Shown in pieces: positions 1 to 57,500 of a stretch of DNA of 64,000 bases. This stretch comes from Viridothelium virens (Eukaryota; Ascomycota; Dothideomycetes; Trypetheliales; Trypetheliaceae): positions 62,001 to 126,000 of the forward strand of contig ML991817.1 in the NCBI GenBank assembly GCA_010094025.1, given 5' to 3'. The position numbers and the translations under genes were made by a program. The first letter of the stretch is position 1, and each line of letters begins with the position of its first letter. The notes below the pieces were generated by a model. That model was not told where the DNA came from. It saw only the letters and a list, made by a program, of their open reading frames with translations, and made no database searches.

Positions 1-970
1 TGGTCGGGAGGCTCCTTTTCAACAGCAAGCAGGTCCGTGTGAAGCAGTGGGAGAACTTCGAGTATTGTCAGAGTCGCATGGATAAAAGGCTTGCTCGCGA
101 ACCTGCGCATTCTGATCTTTGGTCGAGGATACGGTCCAAGTCCGATAGCGCTGAGAATTTAAGTCGAGATGAATACCATTCGAATGCTGTCACGTTCATG
201 GTGGCTGGTGAGCGGGCTCGAGTCTGGGCTGTGCGCTTTTCATTACTTGCTGACCGCGTAGTACAGGGACCGAGACTACTGCTACGGCCCTCAGTGGTTT
301 GATCTACTTTCTCCACCAGGCCGACAACAGGCATGCTCTGAACAAGCTGAAAGCAGAAGTCCGCGGCAAGTTCTCCAGCTTTGGAGACACCACCTTGGAG
401 AGCCTGGCCCGTTTAGAGTACATGCACGCTATCATCCAGGAAGGACTCCGGATGTACCCACCCGTAGGTTTTCTTAAACTCCAACAGCAGCGGGAATTGA
501 CCAAATGCCGTAGGCTCCGAGTCAACTTCCACGACGAACACCTTCCGGAGGTATGATAATCTACGGCCAATTCATACCGGGCAATATCACTGTCGACGTA
601 CATCCCTTGGCTACATTCAAGTCGCCGACACACTTCAAGAACCCGCAGAAATTTCGACCAGAGCGGTGGCTTGGTGATCCTGAGTATAAGGATGATCATT
701 TGGATGCAGTGGAGCCATTCTCGTATGGTCCTCAGAACTGTTTGGGCAAAGTCGGATAATAATCTACCTTTTGAGTATGGAAAGCGTGCTGACATATATA
801 TCTAGAGCCTTGCCTGGCATGAAATGCGACTGCTCCTGGCAGCTCTCATCCTCAGCTTCGACATTGAACCTGCAGCCGAAACCAAAGATTGGATCGATCA
901 GAAGATCTACGTGTTGTGGGAGAAGAAGCCACTCATGTGCGCACTGAGACGAGTCTCCGAATCTCCCTAG
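1..970 (+). CDS. Cytochrome P450, CYP65-like (3' part; 5' end outside window)
   Basis: Heme-thiolate monooxygenase, probably ER-anchored and acting on a secondary metabolite. Exons read 3-207, 267-463, 514-750 and 806-970; the three introns (59, 50 and 55 nt) keep the frame. The spliced protein shows the I-helix oxygen-binding segment MVAGTETTATALSG (split by the first intron), the K-helix EGLRMYPP with its ExxR, the PERW block and the heme-binding loop FSYGPQNCLGK. This pattern resembles fungal isotrichodermin C-15 hydroxylase-type (CYP65) enzymes. No defect is visible in the part present; about the first half, with the membrane anchor, lies left of the window. It converges on another P450 whose stop codon is only 5 nt away. 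The substrate cannot be told from sequence; a terpenoid is suggested only by its neighbours. Confidence 0.88.
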
Positions 971-975
971 ATAGG

Positions 976-2699
976 TCAAGAGTTTCCTTCGCGCTTTCGA
1001 ATACGCATCCTAGCACTGGGATCGGCAAGTCGAACGATCTCGTGCTTGATGTCTTGGGGTCGATCATCACCAGGGACGTACTCGAAGTCGTACTCCAAGA
1101 GTAAAATGCATAGCGCAATCTTTATTTCATTCGAAGCAAAGAATCGACCTGGGCAGGCATGCTCGCCTTGTTCGGTCTCGTCAGCAGTTGTAGTAAAAGT
1201 CTCGGTGGGAAGCAACACTACCGAATCCAAAGCCCATTTGATCAGCCGAAGGAGTGCTGAATTGGTGTTGATTTTGTTCTCCTGGTCGTTCTCGTAGTTT
1301 TGCGAATCGCCTCATGTCGAACGTTTCGGCATTCGGGAAGTGCTCCGAAGAGTGAGCCCAGTCGTTCATGACCATCAATGTGCTACCCTTGGGAATCACA
1401 GTGCCGTCGGACAGTGTGAGTGGAGCTCGAGCAAAGCGTAACATGGAGGCTAGAAAAAACGGATCAGTGCTTGTTTCGTGGGCAGAAGTGCGAGGATCCT
1501 TACTGGCGAGTAGGTCCCTCACTCTCTGACATTCCCTCATGAAGCTGTCCAGCAACCTCATATCCTGCAGTGCTTGCTTTGTCCATCCACTATCGTCAAG
1601 AACGCGGCGGCAATCTTCGCGCAGTGGTTCGATCAGCTCTGGCATGTCACACAGCTGCAGCAGGCACATCGTCATCGTTTCGGAGCTCAGGTGAATAGCG
1701 GCGAGACTGAAAGAAAGCTGGGCAGCAGCGTAGTCTATTTTTCGCCCTCTTGCACATTCCACCATCCAGCCGATCGCATCAGAGGCTTTTGACGATCCCT
1801 CGCTCTCTGAAGAGCTAGCCTGCATCTGAGCTTTCCTCCGATCGACGACTGGCTGGATGAGTACCTGTGCTCTCTTGTAATAATGCCTTGCTTGTGTGCA
1901 ATTTTTGGAAAACCAATGGATGATAGGCCTAGCCAGTGCATGCTGTGAACGCAGCTCGCTAATGGCCTCGAAGCTGCTATAGGTGTAGTTCTTGGTGATA
2001 TCTAGCCAGTCTGGGTTGCGGCAGAGCTCAAGCCCAAGGAAGACCCGAGAAGAGAGTCCTGCAACTAGCGATCAGTGGAATTGGGAGTAGAATGACGTGA
2101 GCATGTTCCGCACGAGCAATGATATCCTGGACGTCCGATTTGATTACATGAGTCTGCCATTCCTTACTTTCTCCAAAGATGTCGCGGTACGTCAACTGCG
2201 TCTCTTCGAACAGGGCTAGATCACGGAATCAGAGATCAGCACATTCAGCCGAAGAGAAATGTATAAGGGTGGTATGAACGTTACCTGTGGTAATCAGACC
2301 CAAGCTTTGCGTAAGCTTCTTCCTAACAACTTCTTGGATGAAGGTATCATTTTCCAGAATTTCTCGAAATGGCTGGAGACCTGGATATGAGGTGAAACTG
2401 TCCCGAGCGTGGGCGTCGTTGAAGCTGAGGTCTGGATGGTTCTTGAGTTCTGCCGCAAATCGATTCGGGACTACTATCTTGAAGTTCGTCCCGGTCTGGA
2501 CCTGGAAGCAGCTCCGGAACTTCTTGCCATGCTCAAGCAGTGCTCGGCCATTCTGTAGATACTCGTTGCGATCAGCGGAGAGCACAGGTATTGTTGCGTA
2601 AGGTTTCTTGTTGTTCTGGCTGTAAAAGAGCCAGATCACGAGTATTGTTACTCCAAGAACAAGTGCGGTCCAGCCGGGCAAGAGGCCGTGATACTCCAT
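976..2699 (-). CDS. Cytochrome P450, CYP68/gibberellin-oxidase-like
   Basis: Complete 496-residue P450 in five exons: 2285-2699, 2114-2215, 1504-2058, 1222-1449, 976-1166. Every junction is GT-AG and the phases add up. An N-terminal membrane anchor lies at about residues 9-27. ExxR is ECQR near residue 347, and the heme loop is FGFGEHACPGRFF with the ligand Cys438. The loop followed by ASNEIK is typical of fungal P450s near ent-kaurene oxidase and GA14 synthase (CYP503/CYP68), many of which oxidise diterpenes. That similarity is from memory of family patterns, not a search. The intron at 1450-1503 uses donor GTAAGG; an earlier GTGAGG would break the frame. It converges on the other P450 and lies in the same direction as the UbiA-like gene, about 310 nt downstream of it. 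Confidence 0.9.
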
Positions 2700-3009
2700 G
2701 GCAGTGGTGCGGGACCAGATGGAGCTACTCGCGAGACACTCGTGGAGTGGCTTTTGGCGAGTCGAAGGATCTTACAAAGCTGAAACACGATGTTGGTGAC
2801 GTCGCGATTAGCGTCTTCTTCAATCGGAAGGATTGCGGCGCTCGGCTAACACCGCTAATATGCTGTCTTCATGTATATTTACGGATAAGTTGTTTTAGGG
2901 TTCTGGGGTTTGGGCCTGACAATCCGTCTTCCCCGCTAGTGTGCGGTAATCTACTTCGTGATCCACTTGAAAAGGATGCAAACCCTTGCGTGTCATGTTG
3001 CATTTTGTA

Positions 3010-3948
3010 CTATGTACGTGCCCCAAGACTTGCCAGCCATACCGGCAGCAATCCAAAAAGGGTAGCTAAACCCCATGGATACACGGCGGAACGTGGCTTA
3101 TGTAGCGCAAGAGCGGCGAAAGCTCCCCAGAAGACGGTGGATCGAACGACGGATAGTACGGCACTTCCACCACCAAGAAGCGTGATAGACAAATCGCCCA
3201 TCATTGTGCTCCCGCCCAAGAAGATCAAGGTAGGACGAACACCAAATGCAGTAGCCAAAGTCGTGATGTTGTTCTGTTCATCTTCTTGGATATCTCGCAC
3301 ATCACAAATTGACTCCCAAAGGAAGTCGTAAGTGATTGTGTACATCAAGACTCGAAAGTGCCCCGCGCTTGAAGCATTCTCCGGATGAAGCATGGTTCCG
3401 CGAAGATACAACACGACTGCGGTGACGTCCATGAGCCCGATGCATGTTGCACCGAAGAGGGACTTGAAGGGCCCGAGGAAGTACTTGAGCTTGACCGTGG
3501 AGATGCTCCCGGTTTTCCACGAGTACACGGGGATCAGTGGCATCGCGTGTACGACGGCGAGCAAGGGAACGCCGAGCAGTCGGAGAAGTGCTAAGAGACC
3601 ACAATGCATTGTGCCGTAAACGGCAAGAACAACGAAAGGGCTGGCAAAGACGACAATAGTCATGAGCCAAGTTTTCCTCGTCTGCCGGGGGAGGTCCGCG
3701 GCCTTGTCCATGACTGCATCAAAAAGTCAGCTTCGATTCTAGACGGTGTTTGACGGCGATATTGACTTACCGTCGATCAGCACGGAGAGAGCGAAAAGTA
3801 GCACAAGTATCGGGGCATCGCGCGGCTGGTTATCTTCAAGCGTCACTCGCGTTGCGCTTACTGCAGGTGGGATGTGCATCGCTCCATTGATGACGGGAAG
3901 CAGGAAGCTTGCTCCCACGATCGACCGCGTAAACTCTGGTTGAGACAT
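3010..3948 (-). CDS. UbiA-superfamily membrane prenyltransferase or terpene cyclase
   Basis: Protein of 293 residues in two exons (3771-3948 and 3010-3713, intron 57 nt), very hydrophobic, with several predicted membrane helices. Both UbiA aspartate-rich motifs are present as DxxDxxxD: D59-V-M-D62-K-A-A-D66, whose second residue codon is split by the intron, and D197-V-R-D200-I-Q-E-D204. In this superfamily these residues bind Mg-diphosphate of a prenyl donor. Fungal members include aromatic prenyltransferases and the membrane terpene cyclases of fumagillin and erinacine biosynthesis. The first motif lacks the usual Asn before its first Asp. Start chosen at 3948 because the upstream in-frame Met at 4149 adds a basic, non-hydrophobic stretch. 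Two P450s and a toroid protein beside it favour terpenoid biosynthesis. Cyclase versus transferase cannot be settled from sequence alone. Confidence 0.82.
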
Positions 3949-4518
3949 GCTGTTGGCCGGACGTCGACGGTGACAATAGAAGGTCTTCCGTTGTGAAGGA
4001 TGACGAATTGATTCAAAAGATTTCTCCGGTATTAGATTTGTACCTACTAAAAAGCAAAAACGATGAGCAGGACAGTAGTGCCTTCGTGTCACATGCAAAA
4101 GCAAGGCCCCACTTCTGCGAGGCAGGTAGAGTATAGAGACTAGAGACACCGGAGAGTCGTATAAGTAACCTTATTTGACGCTTCGGTCCGCATCCAAATC
4201 CTAAAAGCGGTGAAGCCTAAAAACGACATGTAGATAAGACTGCAGGATCAGCTTGGCCCCACAGTCAGCAGCCACTGGTGATCCTTCGTGTGGTTTGGCA
4301 ACGAAGCTCCCCCACCACGGTCACGACGCTGAGAGCACGAAGTGCACGAACAAAAAGTGGAGAGAAGGATGGTCGGTCTAGCTAGCTAGTGCGGGATGGG
4401 CTATGTACGCACACGGGGTGCCTGCCTGCCCATCTGTACGGCTTCTTGGTACGCGTCAGCAATTTTAATTCACCATTACCACGAGCATTTACGATCGTTT
4501 CATTCAATCAAGAGCATC
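3949..4518. promoter_or_regulatory. Divergent intergenic promoter region of UbiA-like and toroid genes
   Basis: A 570-bp spacer between two divergently transcribed genes that look like pathway partners. It must hold the start signals of both. I see no clear binding site that I could name for a pathway-specific regulator. Confidence 0.5.
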
Positions 4519-5617
4519 ATGTTGAATCTCACAAACGTAGATGATGCACTTCATAAGGGCGAAGAGTGGCTCGAGACCAACAAGAAGACATTCCTTTCTG
4601 AGACAGAAACCGGCATCTCGTTCAAAGACAACTTCGCCGATCTGCTTCTATTAGAGCTATCTAACAGATGGTGAGTAATAATCTCCTAGTTTCAGTCGGG
4701 AGCGTTCCAATAACAGATAGATCTCAGGGACTATGTAGATCTTCGAGTACCAGAACGACGATGGCATTATTTCGCTGGCGAGTGCTAGACTCTGACGACT
4801 TACCATATTGGTACTGACTTTGCGATAGTCAAGCCGGTCATTGTACCAGAAGATTACCCCGAAGACAACGACACCAATGCTGTCGCCTTTTCCATCTTGA
4901 AGCCAACCGATTCGAGAGCTAAGGTATTAATTGACGAAATCTTAGCGTGTAAGAATGCGGATGGTATCGTACAAGTATCAAGACTCCCGAGACTTTCGTG
5001 ATGTACTGGGGCTCACAGACTATCAGGTTCACCTGGACCCAAACCGGCCAAGGATAGCCCCTGAAGTCAGTGCCAACATTCTCTCGCTCTTCTACAGCTA
5101 TGGCCGCGGCCACGAAGTTCAAGAGTCTCTGAGCTACCTGCAGAAAGCAATGGCCTTGGAGGAGTACCAAGAGTCGCGATACTATTTCCTCCCAGAACCG
5201 CTGTTCTTCTACACCTGGCGCCTCCTATGCATCGCTTCAGGTTCGGCTCTCGAAACAATCGACAATCAGCGCTTACCCAAGGAGCTGCATACGCTAAGAG
5301 ATCATTTGATCAGACGTGTGAGTGCGCGTTTAGGTACTGCGAAGGACAATGCGTTGTGTCCTGCACTACGTATTTTGATCTGTCACTCGCTGGGAATCAA
5401 GAACGACGTTGATCTCCAGCTTTTGCTCGACTTACAAGAGGACGATGGCAGCTTCGGGAGGGCCTGGTACGTCAGGTACGGCTCAAATGGGATCAGGATA
5501 TCTCATCGAGCTTTCGCTGTCGTGGTTGCTATCGTGGCTCTACGGAGACTTAAACAGCACATGGTCGGGATGAAAACGGCAGTAGTGAATGGGGTTAATG
5601 GCACAACGGCTCGCTGA
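4519..5617 (+). CDS. Alpha/alpha-toroid terpenoid-cyclase-fold protein, possibly frameshifted
   Basis: About 330 residues in four exons: 4519-4670, about 4728-4781, 4829-4974 and 5027-5617. The C-terminal exon has the squalene-cyclase-type repeat [18 protein letters not shown] and a following GIRISHR segment, as in fungal prenyltransferase alpha-alpha toroid proteins. Exon 3 has [16 protein letters not shown], in the place where relatives carry an acidic DxDTT-like motif reminiscent of class II terpene cyclases. Exon 2 best reads as [14 protein letters not shown], but splicing exon 1 (donor after 4670) to the acceptor at 4727 reaches this frame one base out near 4735-4740. Either a frameshift has occurred or an unseen splice is used. 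Introns 2 (4782-4828) and 3 (4975-5026) fit well. Divergent partner of the UbiA-like gene. Enzymatic activity is inference. Confidence 0.65.
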
Positions 5618-6848: not shown

Positions 6849-7210
6849 TGGAGTCTGTCTTTAAGGCGTGCTGTAAAGGGTGTTTGTGGTAGTGTGAGAA
6901 TGGTAGGCAGTGTATATTAGAGACTAACTTCTGGCGAGCCCTCTGCGGGGCCCCGCCGAGAAGATATAGGTATCTTACGGCGGAAGGGGATTTCCGAACA
7001 GAATGTGGACAGCCTGTGAGCAGATGGGACCTATGTTGAAAAAGATGTATGTAAAGGGTTTGTTAAATATAATAGCTGTTTTCATCCTAACATCTGTTTA
7101 GATGATAATTATAAGTATCTTATAATTGGGTGCATTAGGAGCTTGCGTGCGAGCATTGTCAGCCATAGTAATTTGGGTGGATAGCTATAATGGGGTAAAA
7201 TTTGGGTGTA

Positions 7211-7464
7211 CAGTGGGATTTTTTGAAGTGGGACAGCGCTAGACATGGAGCTCCTGACTATCACCAATCAGTATTCGTACTAGCCTTGGCTAGTCCCAGG
7301 TGCTAACCCACGTATAGACTTAGTACTCTTTAGATCAACTAATCAAAAGAACTTACAGCAGCGGCATCGATCCAATCAAGGATTAGAGCTGTTATTAAAA
7401 GCCAATCGAGATATGCACCATATGACCCTTGTCTAGCGCTGTCCCACTTCAAAAAATCCCACTG
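7211..7464. mobile_element. Tc1/mariner-type MITE, 254 bp
   Basis: Perfect 33-bp terminal inverted repeats at 7211-7243 and 7432-7464, beginning CAGTGGGATTTTTTGAAG. Each end is flanked by TA (7209-7210 and 7465-7466), the target duplication typical of the Tc1/mariner/pogo superfamily. The interior is non-coding, so the element would need a transposase supplied from elsewhere. Perfect terminal repeats suggest fairly recent movement or preservation. Confidence 0.85.
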
Positions 7465-7466
7465 TA

Positions 7467-7605
7467 CTTATCAGATCAACTGATCAAAAGAATTTACAGT
7501 AGCGGCACCTATCCAACCAAGGACTAGAGCTGTTATTAAAAGCCAATCAGAATATGCATCATGTGACCCTTGTTTAGCGCTGTCCCACTTCAAAAAATCC
7601 CACTG
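7467..7605. mobile_element. Partial second copy of the same MITE (right half)
   Basis: Directly abuts the complete element, sharing its TA. It repeats the right part of the element (from about AGATCAACT through the right terminal repeat) with scattered substitutions, and ends in the same 33-bp terminal repeat at 7573-7605 with one mismatch, followed by TA. The left end is missing. It could come from nested insertion followed by deletion, or from unequal exchange between copies. Confidence 0.8.
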
Positions 7606-8278
7606 TACCCCGTACGGCTTTTTTTGTCTAGGGCGTGCCCACAAACAATCACGACCGGGACCGGGATCACATGGCATTGGAAAGCGGCTAATGCTTAGTC
7701 ATGATTTACAGCACCGTGCCGTGGTAACACAACGCGTAAATATTAAAATGAGGACACAGGGAGAAAAGTAAAAGTGTCATGGAATGAGTACGAGATCTAC
7801 GTTGCGCTATGGTCTAGATGTCCTGAACAAGCTCCCAGATGAGCAGGAGTTCGAGCCTGCCTGCTATCTTGCCTTGGCCGCTTCCTTGATGTACGAAGCA
7901 ATGGCGTTCGTGCTGTAAGAGAAGCAGGAGCAGCAGATATGACCCACAGAGAAAACAATAGGGCTTGGAAGGTACCTACAGTGAAGCTCCAAAGAGATAA
8001 GAAATTATCGCATCTCGTCTCCGAGCGTTGTTCTTTTCCTCAAGAATCCCACTCTTCCCTTCAAGAATCCCAATCTTTTCGCTATCACTACTAGCAATCA
8101 CTACAAATATGTTTGCCTACCTTATATCTCGGCTGATCTATCGCACCACCCGCCGCCAGCCTCCTCATTATCTGTCCACCAGTCAAAGGTAAATTTGACA
8201 AACCACCTCCTAACACTCGATTTCCTTGACCTTTTGTTCCTGTTGCCCTGGTTCCGCAAGATGCCACCTCACTTAACC
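7606..8278. other. Non-coding spacer
   Basis: No gene recognised. A short direct repeat of TCAAGAATCCCA type occurs near 8040-8065. Confidence 0.4.
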
Positions 8279-40400: not shown

Positions 40401-41823
40401 ATTTCTCAATTCTGTCTTTGTGATGGGCATATTGAAGTATCATTAGCTTTCTAGCTTGTACTGCTAGGTGGAGGCTTTTGGTGCAGAATCTTGGAAGAAG
40501 GTTACGTTCGTTACGCAGCTTGGAGCTATGGTTTAATGATGAATGACAATGCGCTTTTCTCTCTCGATGCAGAGCTCCCCACGCTTCTCTAAAAATCACA
40601 CTGGAATTACTAAGCCGCTAATGATGTGCCTATTACACCTGGAAACCAGTGCTTATATTGCCCGCCGGGATTCTAGTCATCAACACACCGTCCTGGCGGT
40701 GGTTTGCTAACTTCATAACAGCACTTGACTGGGTGAGTGAGGTGGTATTCAAGAATAAGACTTAGGCTTCGAAGCCGCCAGTCAAAGCTTCGACGCCGTA
40801 ATTACACTTAACACCTAACACTTAAGGTTCTGACGCCCTCAGTTGTGGCTCAGAGCCGTCCTAACTTACGTTAAAATTCGATATCAAACCTCTGTAAGTC
40901 TCCCCCAATTATCCTTTCATGGTAGCCTTCCTTTTTTTCCCGCTGTTCCTTTATTCCTGTCACATGCAACACTTTCTCATCTCTACCGCTCTATCATACT
41001 GTATCACAGGACCCTAGCAATCATCGTGATGGCTGAGAAGGTTACTCAAATCCATGTCTCATTCCGTGTCCAGTTGTAGATCGCTACCTGTAGGGTCGAA
41101 TGATTGGATGACTTCATCGTAGCACAAACCCACAAGGATCACACCTTATCGATCCGCATGTTGCGCCAACATTGAAGCCAGGGCTTGTGACATGAAGACC
41201 AGACAAGAAGTTGCACGATGTTGATTCGAGACATGGGGAATAGGCTTTGTTGATTGTTTTTATTTATTTTTATTTTTAACCTCTAAAGTCCTGCCTCTTC
41301 TCTCGAGAGTGGCATGTCCGAGAATGAAGTGTCGAACAACACTCGCGTGAATCTCTCCACTCGTTTCTTCTCAAGTGTTGCTTTCTCGTCGGAACCCACT
41401 GCTTCTCCTGCAGGCTTGACATCGACCTAAGTTTTTATTCATTAATGATCAGCTACTCGCTGAAGGAATTGCTTGAGTCTTTTGATAACCCTCTGACTAT
41501 TTCTTTTACAAACTAGTCTATAAATGAGAGCATGTGAGTTACTGATCCTAGAGTACTCTAGACTCTCTTAGAAAAGTAGCATTATTACACGAGCGCATAG
41601 TAGCGCCGGAAAAGGCAATCCAGCAACAAAGGCATTGAATTACTCAAGTCATCCGTCTGTCGTGAGTAGCTACCAATGAATGTGGACAAAGAGCCTGAGC
41701 TACCTCGCCATTCATTCACTACCACCAACAGTCTCCACCCCGTAGGATATCTGCGGGCGCAAGTATCCTTCGCACCAAGAAACGCTTATGCCTATCCCTC
41801 ACATCCGACAATGATGATCGACC
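40401..41823. other. 1.4-kb spacer
   Basis: No gene recognised; AT-rich patches (TTTTTATTTATTTTTATTTT near 41258) and short open frames only. Confidence 0.4.
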
Positions 41824-42450
41824 ATGACTATGACGTCGTCCTCCTCTCCAGCGATCGTCGCACCGCTCCAGCTCCCAATGTGCTACTATCGCCTCAATAT
41901 CTTCACCCACTGTGGCCACACTTCATACTCTCCGCTCCCGCCAGTCGCCTGTCCCCGCGCCAGTTTCCCCCCCGAGTCCCACCACTCCGAGACGTGCATT
42001 CCGAAGGCGCATCCATTCCAAACGCTGCGCGTAGAGGGGAACTGTGGCCCGTGTGAACGGAAGAAGGAGGAGCGGTTCACAAGGGTTTTTGGTGGTGATC
42101 GAGAGCACGGGGGCAAGGGAGGAGAGGGAGAGGAAGAGGCTATAGTGGAGAGGATCAAGGTTGAGGAATGGAAGTGGAAGGTCCGGTACGCGGCGCCAAA
42201 GAGGGAGGAGGGTGGGCGGGGAGAGTTAGAGATGGATTTAGGGAGAATGAAAGGACCTGGAGGGGAGGGGAGGAGGGAAGAAAGTGGCGGTGTTGCAGAT
42301 GATGAAGGGAAAGAGAAGGCGAAGAGGATATCAGGATTGCGGAAAATCGTGCGGTGGAGATGGAAGAAGGGATCCTGGAGGACGAGTGATGCGAGTAGAC
42401 TGAGCTTGAGCATGAAGAGCCCGAGTTTGAAAAGTCCGAGATGGAGCTAA
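41824..42450 (+). CDS. Small Cys-rich conserved fungal protein
   Basis: Single exon, 208 residues from ATG 41824; the next Met (MCYYRLNIFTHCGH, residue 19) is an equally good start. The N-terminal half has CYY, THCGHTSYS, ACP, ETC, HPFQTLRVEGNCGPC, a Cys/His pattern seen in many short fungal hypothetical proteins and suggestive of one zinc site. The rest is Lys/Glu/Gly-rich and probably disordered, ending in a Ser-rich KSPSLKSPRWS. GC-rich and purine-biased on the coding strand. Function unknown. Confidence 0.6.
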   Translation: MTMTSSSSPAIVAPLQLPMCYYRLNIFTHCGHTSYSPLPPVACPRASFPPESHHSETCIPKAHPFQTLRVEGNCGPCERKKEERFTRVFGGDREHGGKGGEGEEEAIVERIKVEEWKWKVRYAAPKREEGGRGELEMDLGRMKGPGGEGRREESGGVADDEGKEKAKRISGLRKIVRWRWKKGSWRTSDASRLSLSMKSPSLKSPRWS

Positions 42451-43552
42451 AGAGGCGGCCGTCGCGGCTTCCGTTTGCGGACCGACCCTTGATCGACAGC
42501 TTCACGACCGAAATCCTCAACTCTAACGGAGACGGAATCCGTGAGCCCACAAACGCATATGCGTCAAAGAGAAACCATATTTAGGGATCCTTGTATAGCA
42601 CAGCCAGACATCAGTGCTGACGATTCTTACGACGAGGAGAACGATTCATCCTTTTCTACTGGGTACGAGCACGATCGAGTGCGACGGCTGAGTACTGAGA
42701 CAGGCCAGTTCCCACACCAATGCAACTTCCATGTCAGTCATGCATCGGAATTTCGCATCAGATACACACATTGGGATCACTACCTAGACGATCACCCAAT
42801 ACACCATGGAGATGTGAACTGAAGTAGCCGTTGCATCCCCTTAAGTCCTAGGGGGTGTTCCGTTACGCATCCACAGCTATCGTTGCAAGTGGTACGAATC
42901 AACCCTCTGGAGACGCAGTGGTAACATCTCATCATAAGCCGTCACACCTTTCAGACTGGTCTACCATATTACCGATTTTTCGCTAATTCTTGGTAAAGAG
43001 CCACATGCTTGGGCACGGGCTTGTCCTTGTCGATGATCTTGACTTGGCTGGTACGTACAGTGAAGCTCCAATAGGACTGTCTCATCAATTGGTTCAGCAT
43101 GTGGACCGTCAAGCATGCTCTAGACTTGATCAAGGCAAGCCGACAGCGTAAGGCGCAAATCGGACTGACAGATGAATATCATGCATTGATAGACTGTTTC
43201 CTGCGGACCGCCTATTAGTCAAGTTTCTATCCTGAATCTTTCCATTGGTAGTCTCTCATTATTATCAGGCTTGATAAAGTAATTCTCCAGTATCTATGTT
43301 GAATTGTATATTTTGCCACGCCCTGAACATTCCATCGTTCCCTCCCCTTGATTTCTCGCCGGAGTTTCGGGAGCTCCTAAAAGTCCATACACCTCTACCC
43401 TGGCCAGGAGGTTCTACAACACACACAACCATGGTGAAATGGTCGACCAAATCCTTTTTGACTCTTTCCAAGCTCGTTCTCCGCAGTCGTGATTGCAAAG
43501 CTAACGATCAGAACTGCAATGTCTTTACGATCGCCTACGCCAGCCTAGAGCG
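42451..43552. other. Convergent spacer
   Basis: A 93-codon plus frame at 42541-42822 starts in MSPQTHMRQRETIF and has acidic residues, but no domain. Nothing else recognised. Confidence 0.4.
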
Positions 43553-53064: not shown

Positions 53065-54540
53065 TCAGTTATGACATAGAATAAAGGCAGTGACTGTCCT
53101 TCTCCATCTTATACTTTCCCTTGTAGCGGAGTAACTTATTCAGTCCCTGGCGCCACTTCCTCTGCCAATTCTCTTCCAGTCCCTTACAAGCTCCGATTGC
53201 GTCCGACCCTGGACAATACTAAGTCAGAGTCTCCCACGGCTGCTGGAGAGGTCCTTGTATAGAGTCTTCATCAAAGATGCCACTCAATCCGATGAATATC
53301 AAATACAACATGCGAAGTACCTACAGGTAGCATTTTAAAGTTGCTGGTTTTGAAACAGTCTCAATCGCCCCAGCATTCTAAAAGCTCAAGTTGAAGGAAC
53401 AAAGAGTGAAGAACAGAACCAGACAAATGACTAATGTTCGGACTGCGAACCAGCTTAAACCACAATCTGTCCTGAGACTTAAGTCCCGCATGTGGTGTTT
53501 GCAATTGAGCGCACATAAGCCTCGGTGGAAACCATATTAGGAGAGACTACTCTAGCGTGTGATCGCCAAATTGCACTTCTCTGGAAGATGGCACTTAACA
53601 GAGCTGTACGAGCCGTGCTGACCGCGAGATAGATGAGATGTGCCTTCCACTCCAGTTTGCGAATCCTCTAGCATGTTCTCCATCTCGCCTATGAGGAGAA
53701 GGAATTTGTAGGTAGCTGAGAATGAGAAGGTGTCCAGATGCAGACATGGAAAAGGAAAATCCTGGTGCTCAACATCGTTCACCATCACATAGTCGAATAA
53801 ATGCTTCGTTGACGGGTCTCGTGGTTAGTCAAAAGGAGGACAAAGTTAATCAGATCACGCCTGTCCTGACGTGCCTAAGTCAATTAAAATTGCGTGGTTG
53901 GTGTGTGAGTAAAATCACGTGATGGCGCGAAACGCCGGCGCTCGGTCCATCTGCATTGAAGACTCAACATCCACTCATCGAGCTTCCTCTCGTCGCCCTT
54001 AAAGCAGCCAGCGCTTAACTCAGAGACTCCGCAAGATCTTCCGCCATCCAATAGCGACAATGGCTTTGAGAAGTTTGAAACATGCGGTACTATTTCAGGA
54101 ACCACTTCAGCAAAATAGAAGCACCTTGTCTCCACAATTGGGATGATGTTTCAAACATTGTTGCCTCATTAGCATACGATGTCCCAGTCAAAGGTCCATC
54201 GATTGAGACTTCAAGCTTTGTCACATTTTCATATTGTTACTCATTCTTTATCTCTTGCTCTACTCATTCTGCATGTCGTTTTCCATTTTTCACTTGTCAT
54301 TCCTAGCAAACACGTCTTATTTCTTAGTCTTCCATTTCTTTTCCTTCTAACGATCTCGGTAATACCTGGGCGATTTACTACCTCAATCATTTCAGCAATC
54401 CCATTGGAGGGTGTAATAAAGGTAAATTCCACCAGCAAAATCTTCCTTGTGTTCACTGCTGATCATGGTTCTGAAGTAATAGGATCTCTTTTGTCCTTGC
54501 TGCAGAAACTTCGAGCGTCCCTTATCAAATTCTGAATCGT
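53065..54540. other. 1.5-kb spacer
   Basis: 3' region of the dehydrogenase and promoter of the giant acidic protein. A pyrimidine-rich T/C stretch near 54225-54360 immediately upstream may be promoter. No gene recognised. Confidence 0.4.
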
Positions 54541-57500
54541 ATGGCCGATGACGAGAATCAGCAGCTGTTCGCAAATACCTACACACCAGCTGATTCGAAA
54601 AGCCAAAGTAAGCGAGCTGCGGCGGCGACCGCTGCTCAATCTTGCGATCGAACTCTAGCGTCGGACCGCTCTGAAAACCTTGGGGTCACCGGATCGAGGC
54701 GCTGGCCAGCGATTTTTAGGCCGTCGAAGAAACCCTCAATTACGATAGATACAAATCTTGCTCAAAAGCGAAAAGGCGGCTTTGCCCAGAAAATCCCTGT
54801 CAGAGATGTCAGGCATCAGCCAAAGCGTGTTAGCTTCAAGTCCAACGCAAGAGCCTCGTGCCAGATTTCACCATCTAGCGGAAGCAGTGAGAGATCAAGG
54901 CAACCCTTAAGATTGGATACTACTCCGTGTCCCAAGGGACAAGTTAGGACAGGGTCTGACAACCGCCCTACGCCAACTGTTATCGTTACGCCTGCAACAG
55001 AGGATTTTCCGTGTTCGTTGTCGGCGAGACAAGAGCGAGGGTATCAATCTAGACCTCGTTCTAGTATCTACTCCAGAGCAACTTGCATCCTCGATTCTCC
55101 TGACTGCCACGATGTTCCGCCTTTGCCAAGTCTTTCTCATCACCAGTCATTTGACAACGCTAGACCGTCAGCTTCTCATTCTGGAACCTCAATTCGAGAT
55201 TCGGCTTTGACACCCTTTGAAGAGGACGATAGAGCAGATATATTCGGTCGAAACGAGCGGTCATTATCTACTTTCACAATCTTCGATGATGACGACGCCT
55301 CGTTTTCAGAGGGGACATCCAAAGATACGACCCCAGCGGAGCACCGAACACCCGATCTCCTATCTTCTAGATGGTCAAAGCCGATTCCGCGTAGATCTTG
55401 CGGATGGTGGAATGTTGTCACTTCCCCATTTTCTCTTAATCCGAGTAGCAATGGCAAGTTCGAAAGAATCTACTCTACATACGCTCCGGGGTATGGTACC
55501 AACCGACAGCTGGATATCTCAGAACCCCAGACAGCAGGCCTCCAACCACCTCAGGGCTGGGCTAGTCTGCCTCGAAGATCGAAAAGCTTCTCTGGTGCGA
55601 TACATCACGGACCTTCACGACCGAAGAAGCCAAGTCTGCCACTCAATCGCTCTATTGGGTCTCAAAATCTCGCTGAAACACCTCTATTCCAAGTTGGAGG
55701 GGAGCGAGAGCCACCAAAGACTGGAGAAGCCTCCAAATACTATGATCCGAATGAAGACTTTGGCTCGCCTAAGCCTTGCAATACTGTCGACCAAAACAAT
55801 GATGGTGATATTGCCCAGGCAAGAAGTCCGTGCAGGGATGAATCTGAACCTGAAAATTGTGAAGTGCCTATCGTACTCGGGAAAGGATCACCAGGGCAGC
55901 TCTCTGAAGCTGATCCCTATGGTGACTCAGCAGTGAGCTCTGATGAGGGTGCAGGCGCTGCAGAAAATCCGCATATGGGCAATGAACTGAGCGACGACAA
56001 CTCAACCAATGGTGAGATACTTTCTTTTCTTAATGACAACCCTTGTTCGAATGATGAAACCGACACGTCCCGTGGCCTTGATGATGGATATTCCGGCTCT
56101 GGAGACTCCGAGTTAGGAATTGCTGGGCTTGATGATCCTACCTGTCTCGATTCCGAGTCGATAACTCCAGGATACGATGACCCTGATGAGCAGGAATTAT
56201 AATTCGAAGACGCTACCGATAAAGGTTCTGTGCCTGGCTCTGGAAGCCTTGAATCAGGAATTTCCGGTTGCGATGATCCTGGATATGTGGGCTCTGAGTC
56301 GATGGGTTCAGAATACGAAAATTCTGACAACCAGGAACTACAATCCGAAGACCCTGCAGAGGAGGACCTTGAGTCAGACCGTGCAGACTCTGACCTAGGA
56401 ATGCTTGAACATGACGAACCTGCAAAAATTGACTCTGAGATGACGGGTTTAGACTATGAAGACTCTGAAGATCCTGAATTACGATCTGAGGACTATGATG
56501 AAGAAGATATGATGTCCGGTACTGGAGGATCTGAATTAGAAATTCCGATCTCTGATGAAGTTACTGACCCTCAGTCAACGAATCCAGAATGCGAGGATTT
56601 TGACGACCAAGGACTACAGTCTAACTACTCTACTGAGGAGCGTTTCAGACCTGGAAAGTCTGAAGCCGGAGATACTGACTTTGATGAATACCCTGATTAC
56701 GAAGAGACCTTTGACTGTGAAACACCCTCAGAACGCGAAGGTAAACCTGAATATGTTGGAGAATCTGACTACAGCGGAAAATCTGTCTATGATGGAGGAC
56801 TTCAAGATAGCATCGAACCTCGATATGATGACTTCGATTACAGACAGCCTGATCCTGACATTGGCCAAGAAGATGACAATTTCCGGGAACCTTCCCAATT
56901 CAGCAACTACGGTACTGAAAATCTGGATTCTAACTATAGTCCCGGTGGCTACGGCTCTTCAGGTTTCCGAGATACTAATGCGTTTCGTCCTAGCTCTAGT
57001 AGCCCTGCTAACGGGAATTTGAGTTATGAAGATCCAGAATTGGACGGTCACACTTACGGTGGCGTTGATGATCAAAATTATGGGTTTGGGGATCCCGGAT
57101 CAGCCGATGATCCTTACTTGGGAGATGATGGTATTCACGCCGATGAGTTTGCGTCAGATGCTAGTCTCACTTATGGCAACGAGCTTCCGGATAGGCCCGC
57201 TTCTGGCTACAGCAACCGTCTTGACTATGAAGATGATAGTGGCTTCTCCCCTGCTGATGTTTCAAATCTTAATGACAACCTTGATTACATCCCCAGCTCT
57301 GGAGCTGCTAATAACTTCGAAGATGGTCAGGATGACTGTCGTAGCTTATCAAGCGGCTTTCGTAGCAATGCTGGTCCAGAAGAGTTCTCTTCTTATGAAC
57401 CAGAGCACATTGATGGTGCTCGCTCTGACCACCCTTCCAGTCCTGGTTTTCCGTTGGATACTGGAAATGCCTATGAGCCCGAGGACCTGGTATCCACACC

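Follow-up and report, generated by a model that had tools for sequence, protein, structure and literature searches.

The fungal drimane synthases AstC, AacA, AncC and DrtB are HAD-TC proteins, in which an N-terminal HAD domain is fused to a terpene cyclase domain of the TC-beta type. When isolated, the TC domains of both AstC and AacA are reported to close the rings of farnesyl diphosphate (FPP) without removing the diphosphate, and the HAD domain of AstC tunes the choice of product (PMC13244436). In bacteria, the FPP-using AsDMS of Aquimarina spongiae has been proposed to have arisen when a phosphatase became fused to a free-standing TC-beta enzyme (PMC12365925). Two further kinds of system bear on the locus described here. 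The fungal UbiA-type cyclases Fma-TC, EriG and Tps1A carry a first Asp-rich motif of the form NXXX(G/A)XXXD and a second of the form QDXXDXXXD (PMC9835599), and the mos (PMC11109268) and mfm (PMC10882540) meroterpenoid clusters combine a prenyltransferase of the UbiA or DMATS type with a cyclase of the Pyr4 family. Here we describe a locus of the ascomycete Viridothelium virens (Trypetheliaceae), at positions 1-5617 of a stretch of 64,000 nucleotides (the window; C47:62001-126000 of the 30.7-Mb genome, where C47 is contig ML991817.1), in which the gene for a toroid protein resembling the TC-beta domain of AstC lies beside the gene for a UbiA-like membrane protein.

The locus holds four genes, all judged real. 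The initial annotation had seen two cytochrome P450s, a UbiA-superfamily protein with both Asp-rich motifs and a toroid protein of the terpenoid-cyclase fold within 5.6 kb, the last two divergently arranged, and our gene models and the matches to the P450 family PF00067 agree with this layout. The UbiA-like and toroid genes are 570 bp apart from ATG to ATG, and it is plausible that they share one promoter. Most likely, as judged from conserved residues, ring closure in this pathway rests on the toroid protein, by protonation, and not on the UbiA-like protein, because the AstC-type TC domain keeps the acid motif and the residues that position the acid.

A stand-alone class II cyclase of the TC-beta type

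In a phmmer search of the PDB, the toroid protein matched AstC (22ty and 22tz, E 4.9e-38 and 2e-37). The best alignment, of toroid residues 9-293, spans the entire TC-beta domain of this drimane synthase, with 81 identities among 274 aligned residues. The bacterial HAD-TC sequences 9mhs, named a drimenol synthase, and 9m7d were matched at E 3.3e-16 and 1.4e-15. By this homology to a solved structure, which also assigns its fold, the toroid protein is identified as a relative of the TC-beta part of the fungal HAD-TC drimane synthases and as a class II cyclase, started by protonation, that stands alone. A fused HAD-like domain is absent: the protein begins only eight residues before the aligned domain, and its start codon lies 570 bp from that of the divergent neighbour. 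At E <= 1, neither a Pfam model nor another protein of the genome matches the toroid, and NCBIfam offers nothing at E <= 0.1.

The catalytic residues are intact. In the numbering of AstC (after PMC13244436, where D273 is Asn in the crystallised mutant), the acid D273, the base D271 and the residues T274, N324 and Y361 correspond to toroid D82, D80, T83, N133 and Y169. The same five columns are identical in six of six bacterial HAD-TC proteins, a narrow set from one scan with two short patterns, in which 6 of 90 stretches were confirmed (five from Aquimarina, one of them A. spongiae, and one from Flavivirga). Those mutants that were made of these five residues in AstC gave no product (PMC13244436). 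Six of the ten pocket residues of AstC are the same in the toroid (F230, Y256, F257, Y361, Y448 and I455), and two more, F268 and F360, are replaced by Tyr. A QW-type motif, QEDDGSF, is present at residue 253, with Phe in place of the Trp that ends the HAD-TC motif Qxx(D/G)G(G/S)W (PMC5024094).

The phosphate contacts are ambiguous. Of the residues that contact the alpha-phosphate in AstC, K314 corresponds to Arg123 and S450 to Ser269 of the toroid. T264, a further diphosphate-binding residue of AstC, corresponds to Val. Arg also stands at the K314 position in all six bacterial proteins, and in AstC the K314R mutant lost less than 25% of the product, whereas K314A lost nearly all of it (PMC13244436). 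With Arg123 and Ser269 retained, a phosphorylated substrate is therefore favoured, though not strongly.

Compared with the fungal HAD-TC proteins, the toroid thus keeps the DxDT motif, its Asn and Tyr partners and six of the ten pocket residues, whereas it lacks the N-terminal HAD domain, ends its QW-type motif in Phe and has changed beta-phosphate contacts. This sequence comparison was made with AstC only; AacA, AncC and DrtB enter it through their description in PMC13244436. The ast cluster, as described in the cited part of PMC5024094, holds HAD phosphatases and a nonribosomal peptide synthetase, whereas the toroid has a UbiA-like protein and aromatic prenyltransferases as neighbours. With AsDMS and the HAD-TC proteins of Bacteroidota the toroid shares the TC-beta family, the acid motif and the Arg at the alpha-phosphate position. 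In all six bacterial loci, however, the protein is a HAD fusion of 511-536 residues, as judged from its length and an FDxGDV motif, and the toroid is unfused. The toroid either has the form that the fusion proposal for AsDMS requires, or has lost its HAD part later. In five of the six bacterial loci (L023 and L025-L028, at ~4.1-5.0 kb) a 289-residue protein, prenyl-synthase-like by eye, is encoded just upstream of the HAD-TC gene.

Order of steps in the proposed pathway

The best explanation of the locus, to which we give a probability of roughly 0.43, is that the toroid makes a bicyclic diphosphate, which is then used by the UbiA-like enzyme and tailored by oxidation, methylation and glycosylation enzymes of the cluster. 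The toroid would protonate the terminal double bond of FPP, or of a longer homologue, through Asp82, with Asp80 acting as the base. Going by the conserved residues and the published activity of the isolated TC domains, the product would be a bicyclic drimane-type diphosphate. The diphosphate would remain on the cyclised product, because the toroid has no HAD phosphatase domain and none was seen nearby. With the regiochemistry of AstC, whose product we take to be allylic, the toroid would yield an allylic diphosphate, which is a competent donor. The UbiA-like enzyme may then spend the diphosphate as a leaving group, most likely by transferring the cyclised unit to an acceptor, which is the weakest step of the proposal. 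Five P450s, a methyltransferase and a glycosyltransferase would tailor the product, and the Orf2-type and DMATS-type enzymes of the cluster could either prenylate an aromatic part of it or belong to a neighbouring pathway. Both the order of the steps and the reaction of the UbiA-like protein are inferred.

Several observations weigh against this order of events. On the side of the cyclase, only six of the ten pocket residues are the same as in AstC, and F309 and Y446 are replaced by His and Val. Both beta-phosphate sensors of AstC are changed (Q265 to Pro74, K451 to Asn270). The bacterial proteins lack these sensors as well but carry basic residues in place of T264 and S450, so that the toroid may still accept a substrate without a diphosphate. 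The toroid gene model relies on a GC-AG intron, and poor splicing of it would weaken the case for the toroid. On the side of the UbiA-like protein, the PF01040 score of 16.7 bits (E 0.0048) falls short of the cut-off, 34.2 bits, and a model for cytochrome b, SoxC, is the best NCBIfam match (E 0.0011, but far under its own cut-off). A search of the PDB with this protein gave no chain at E <= 10, and an AlphaFold2 single-sequence model, with the intron read through, was unusable (mean pLDDT, the predicted local distance difference test, of 38.3). Finally, a 6-kb interval with a peptidase and two genes of no known family parts the DMATS block from the rest of the cluster, and no acceptor-making gene is visible: none of the 75 genome matches to the polyketide synthase (PKS)/ketosynthase family PF00109 lies on C47, in a search that ignores introns and scores best candidates only.

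The reverse order is somewhat less likely. Here the UbiA-like protein or one of the two soluble prenyltransferases would farnesylate an acceptor, and the stand-alone cyclase would afterwards close the rings on the bound chain, as Pyr4-family cyclases and MacJ do in meroterpenoid pathways of other fungi. The loss of the HAD domain and of Q265 and K451 fits a substrate without a free diphosphate, and there is good precedent for farnesylation by a DMATS-type or UbiA-type enzyme before a cyclase of another kind closes the rings (mfm, PMC10882540; mos, PMC11109268). In contrast, the alpha-phosphate contacts Arg123 and Ser269 are kept, and no gene that would make the acceptor is seen. Moreover, all six bacterial relatives, including the A. 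spongiae protein, also lack Q265 and K451 and have Pro and Ser at these positions. The loss of the two residues was for this reason dropped as proof of a phosphate-free substrate. In outline, the locus resembles the mos and mfm clusters in its combination of prenyltransferases with a separate protonation-type cyclase, and mfm also has P450s. The cyclase of the window is of the TC-beta type and not of the Pyr4 family, and no PKS match was found on its contig; mos, as far as the cited part of PMC11109268 describes it, is also without a PKS.

Within the cyclise-first reading, the pair might amount to a split terpene synthase, with the toroid as the class II half and the UbiA-like protein as an intramembrane class I half that ionises the cyclised diphosphate, either for transfer of the whole unit to an acceptor or for further cyclisation. 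We hold this for rather unlikely.

The UbiA-like membrane protein

The UbiA-like protein is probably a diverged member of the UbiA superfamily. No Pfam model other than PF01040 matches it at E <= 1, and after SoxC its next NCBIfam match is the prenyltransferase model PRK13105 (E 0.0077, far below cut-off). Two DxxDxxxD motifs are present at residues 59 and 197 (D59/D62/D66 and D197/D200/D204), and at least two such motifs occurred in a fraction of only 5e-5 of 20000 shuffles of its residues. About eight hydrophobic segments rise above the hydropathy cut-off, and the UbiA layout fits with a ninth, before motif II, placed by eye. The Asp-rich motifs follow segments 2 and 6, of which segment 6 is the one under the cut-off and placed by eye.

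Relatives were sought inside and outside the genome. The UbiA-like protein is absent from the 10 matches of a PF01040 search of the genome, and at E <= 1 a genome search gave no match to the genome's own UbiA genes and no paralogue; phmmer against the genome's UbiA proteins gave no match either. With blastp against the same kind of proteins (12 entries, two proteins being present twice), the best match was L005, a protein with the transferase motif NDIIDRDLD (E 0.011), and one Fma-TC-like protein was matched over 30 residues at E 0.081. Both matches cover about 30 residues around motif II. With hhalign, the score against eight of the ten PF01040 matches was 23.5, where the best of 50 shuffles reached 22.45, and the score against the four Fma-TC-like proteins was 19.75, inside the shuffled range (best 20.49). 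Bacterial relatives were not found at E <= 1 in 4 genomes, and matches at E ~0.005 were found in 2 of 395 Bacteroidota genomes.

An unrelated multi-pass protein, carrying two Asp-rich motifs by chance, would account for much of this: the PF01040 score below cut-off and the absence from the ten genome matches, the rank of the cytochrome b model before the prenyltransferase model, the lack of a match to the genome's own UbiA genes, the hhalign scores close to those of shuffles and the scarcity of the Bacteroidota matches. We consider it improbable, given that PF01040 is the sole Pfam match and that two motifs of this spacing, so rare among the shuffles, stand where the UbiA layout has them, behind segment 2 and the by-eye segment 6.

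The motifs suggest that a transferase is more likely than a cyclase. Motif I, IDVMDKAAD, fits the pattern NDXXDXXXD save for Ile in place of Asn, and motif II, CDVRDIQED, keeps the three Asp of QDXXDXXXD with Cys in place of Gln. Motif I thereby keeps the middle Asp that the UbiA-type cyclases swap for Gly or Ala; the Asn is not kept.

The initial annotation had proposed that cyclisation may rest on UbiA chemistry. In such a model the UbiA-like protein would itself be an intramembrane class I cyclase of the Fma-TC or EriG kind, and the toroid an accessory. The likeness to Fma-TC, EriG and Tps1A, which were compared by their motif descriptions only, lies in a small multi-pass protein with two Asp-rich motifs and P450s alongside, and P450s adjoin fungal UbiA-type cyclases (PMC9835599). 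The DxxDxxxD spacing of motif II is common to Fma-TC-like cyclases, and the short blastp match to one such protein of the genome lies at this motif. Nevertheless, this proposal is not supported and is now very unlikely: motif I is prenyltransferase-like and not of the form NXXX(G/A)XXXD, Cys and not Gln precedes motif II, and with the four Fma-TC-like proteins of the genome phmmer gave no match and hhalign scored no better than with shuffles. In addition, the toroid has an AstC-type domain that retains the acid motif and the full class II acid-base set.

Four other UbiA-superfamily genes of the genome are better candidates for UbiA-type cyclases than the gene of the window, as their motifs suggest. 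These genes (L029, C11:111477; L030, C38:574; L031, C48:234820; L032, C11:395408) encode an NQ...ED motif I, an NKPWR stretch and either QDxxDxxGD (three of the four) or MDxxDxxGD. The NQ...ED motif resembles the one printed for Pb_BisA (PMC11745945).

The gene cluster and its meaning

Upstream of the window, the contig sequence was read from C47:22001. The initial annotation had taken the locus for the edge of a candidate terpenoid cluster, and biosynthetic genes do continue for about 21 kb upstream. They encode three further P450s, a DMATS and an Orf2-type enzyme, which are soluble aromatic prenyltransferases from separate families, an FkbM methyltransferase and a glycosyltransferase (Table 1). 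The further genes it had hoped for upstream did not turn up. None of the 6 genome matches to the prenyl diphosphate synthase family PF00348 lies on C47, in a search of the same kind as that for PF00109, and no transporter, regulator or HAD phosphatase was seen when 109 further open reading frames (ORFs), some of them exons of the named genes, were read by eye. The best reading is that of a PKS-less terpenoid or meroterpenoid cluster.

Table 1. Features of the locus (window positions) and of the upstream part of the cluster (C47 positions)
Feature	Position	Strand	Evidence and remarks
Cytochrome P450, 3' part	1..961	+	PF00067; 5' part upstream of the window (C47:61039 onward)
Cytochrome P450, haem-binding motif intact across intron	976..2699	-	PF00067, splice check; outer ends placed by eye
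UbiA-like membrane protein, 293 aa	3010..3948	-	gene model; two exons, 57-bp intron 3714-3770
Second Asp-rich motif DVRDIQED, UbiA-like residues 197-204	3280..3303	-	
Divergent intergenic region between UbiA-like and cyclase genes	3949..4518	.	570 bp; no HAD-like frame seen
Stand-alone class II terpene cyclase (TC-beta), 312 aa	4519..5617	+	splice models, phmmer; four exons
Exons of the toroid gene	4519-4670, 4728-4777, 4829-4974, 5027-5617	+	
Acid motif DNDT, toroid residues 80-83	4864..4875	+	aligned with D271xD273T274 of AstC
P450	C47:~40960-42935	-	52.5 bits on one exon; exons joined by eye
P450	C47:44115-45668	-	167.6 bits
DMATS prenyltransferase	C47:46546-47901	+	290.8 bits; nearest PDB entry dimethylallyltryptophan synthase 1, E 1.2e-61
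M20 peptidase, Pfam-less frame, small LEA-like gene	C47:48.4-53.0 kb		named by eye (LEA-like gene)
P450	C47:~53832-55652	+	124 bits
FkbM methyltransferase	C47:56133-56954	-	68.5 bits
Orf2-type prenyltransferase	C47:57366-58274	+	215.7 bits; nearest PDB entry CloQ, E 7.4e-46
Glycosyltransferase	C47:58873-60279	-	Caps_synth 28.8 bits, cut-off 24.5
P450, continuing into the window	from C47:61039	+	followed by the minus-strand P450, UbiA-like and TC-beta genes

In the whole genome there is one Orf2-type prenyltransferase match and one TC-beta match, and the two are about 8 kb apart, a proximity with a chance of ~6e-4 under random gene placement. The position of the DMATS gene is less telling, because the genome has seven DMATS matches at six loci. 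On a separate contig (C142:18656-21699, L006), matches to a DMATS and to a UbiA prenyltransferase (NDNLDQDFD) lie ~1.1 kb apart and divergent, which is a second, different pairing of these two kinds of transferase. The Pfam-less open frame inside the cluster region (C47:50903-52378; L010:8903-10000 to L009:1-378) contains the sequence HEVAH. Of the two P450s at the edge of the window, the one on the plus strand scored 42.2 bits (ORF 254-556), 54.9 bits (ORF 514-759) and 41.8 bits (L009:9039-9995) against PF00067, and the one on the minus strand 70.3 bits (ORF 1181-2071). The haem motif of the latter, FGEHACPGRFF, reads across a 55-bp intron at window 1167-1221.

Downstream of position 5617 there are about 5 kb in which no gene was recognised (ORFs were not scanned there) and which hold a repeat element, and then genes for a SET-domain protein and a GTP cyclohydrolase II. 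The cluster therefore probably ends at the toroid gene. The repeat element (window 7205-7611; C47:69205-69611) begins 1.6 kb past the toroid gene, has inverted ends of 41-53 nt and a tandem unit of 141 nt, and is similar to a miniature inverted-repeat transposable element. Its relatives, mostly ~260 bp long and 72-86% identical, are found in at least 12 other places of the genome.

Intron 2 of the toroid gene (window 4778-4828) is a GC-AG intron with the donor GCGAGT and a branch-point-like sequence CTGAC. It was chosen among seven open gene models because the length of the toroid there then matches AstC without a gap. The donor looks like a GT turned into GC. That the toroid gene is decaying and its pathway lost, the P450s and transferases being remnants, is very improbable: this donor, the loss of the conserved WHYF segment with the sole open-frame GT donor when the other introns are fixed, and the repeated-element sequence downstream would fit decay, yet the reading frame is open through each of the four exons, the toroid retains its five acid-base residues, the one intron tested in the adjoining minus-strand P450 leaves that gene intact, and GC-AG introns are usually tolerated.

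Both proteins of the pair are easily missed, because the toroid has no Pfam or NCBIfam match at the thresholds given above and the UbiA-like protein falls under the Pfam cut-off. What is new here is a stand-alone TC-beta protein with a UbiA-like partner. Neither an AstC-type cyclase without HAD domain nor a pair of UbiA and AstC-type proteins was seen in a limited search of the open-licence literature of PubMed Central, which is weak evidence of absence. The HAD-TC drimane synthases have been described as fusions, and how their two halves cooperate is under study (PMC13244436). A HAD-less cyclase beside a possible user of its diphosphate makes both the origin of the fusion and the division of labour between its halves testable. 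If the split-synthase reading is true, the free TC-beta protein would show in nature what the ancestor of the HAD-TC proteins was like before fusion, or else a reversal of that fusion. Furthermore, if the pair works as proposed, it would offer a route by which terpene units that are already cyclised could be joined to other molecules.

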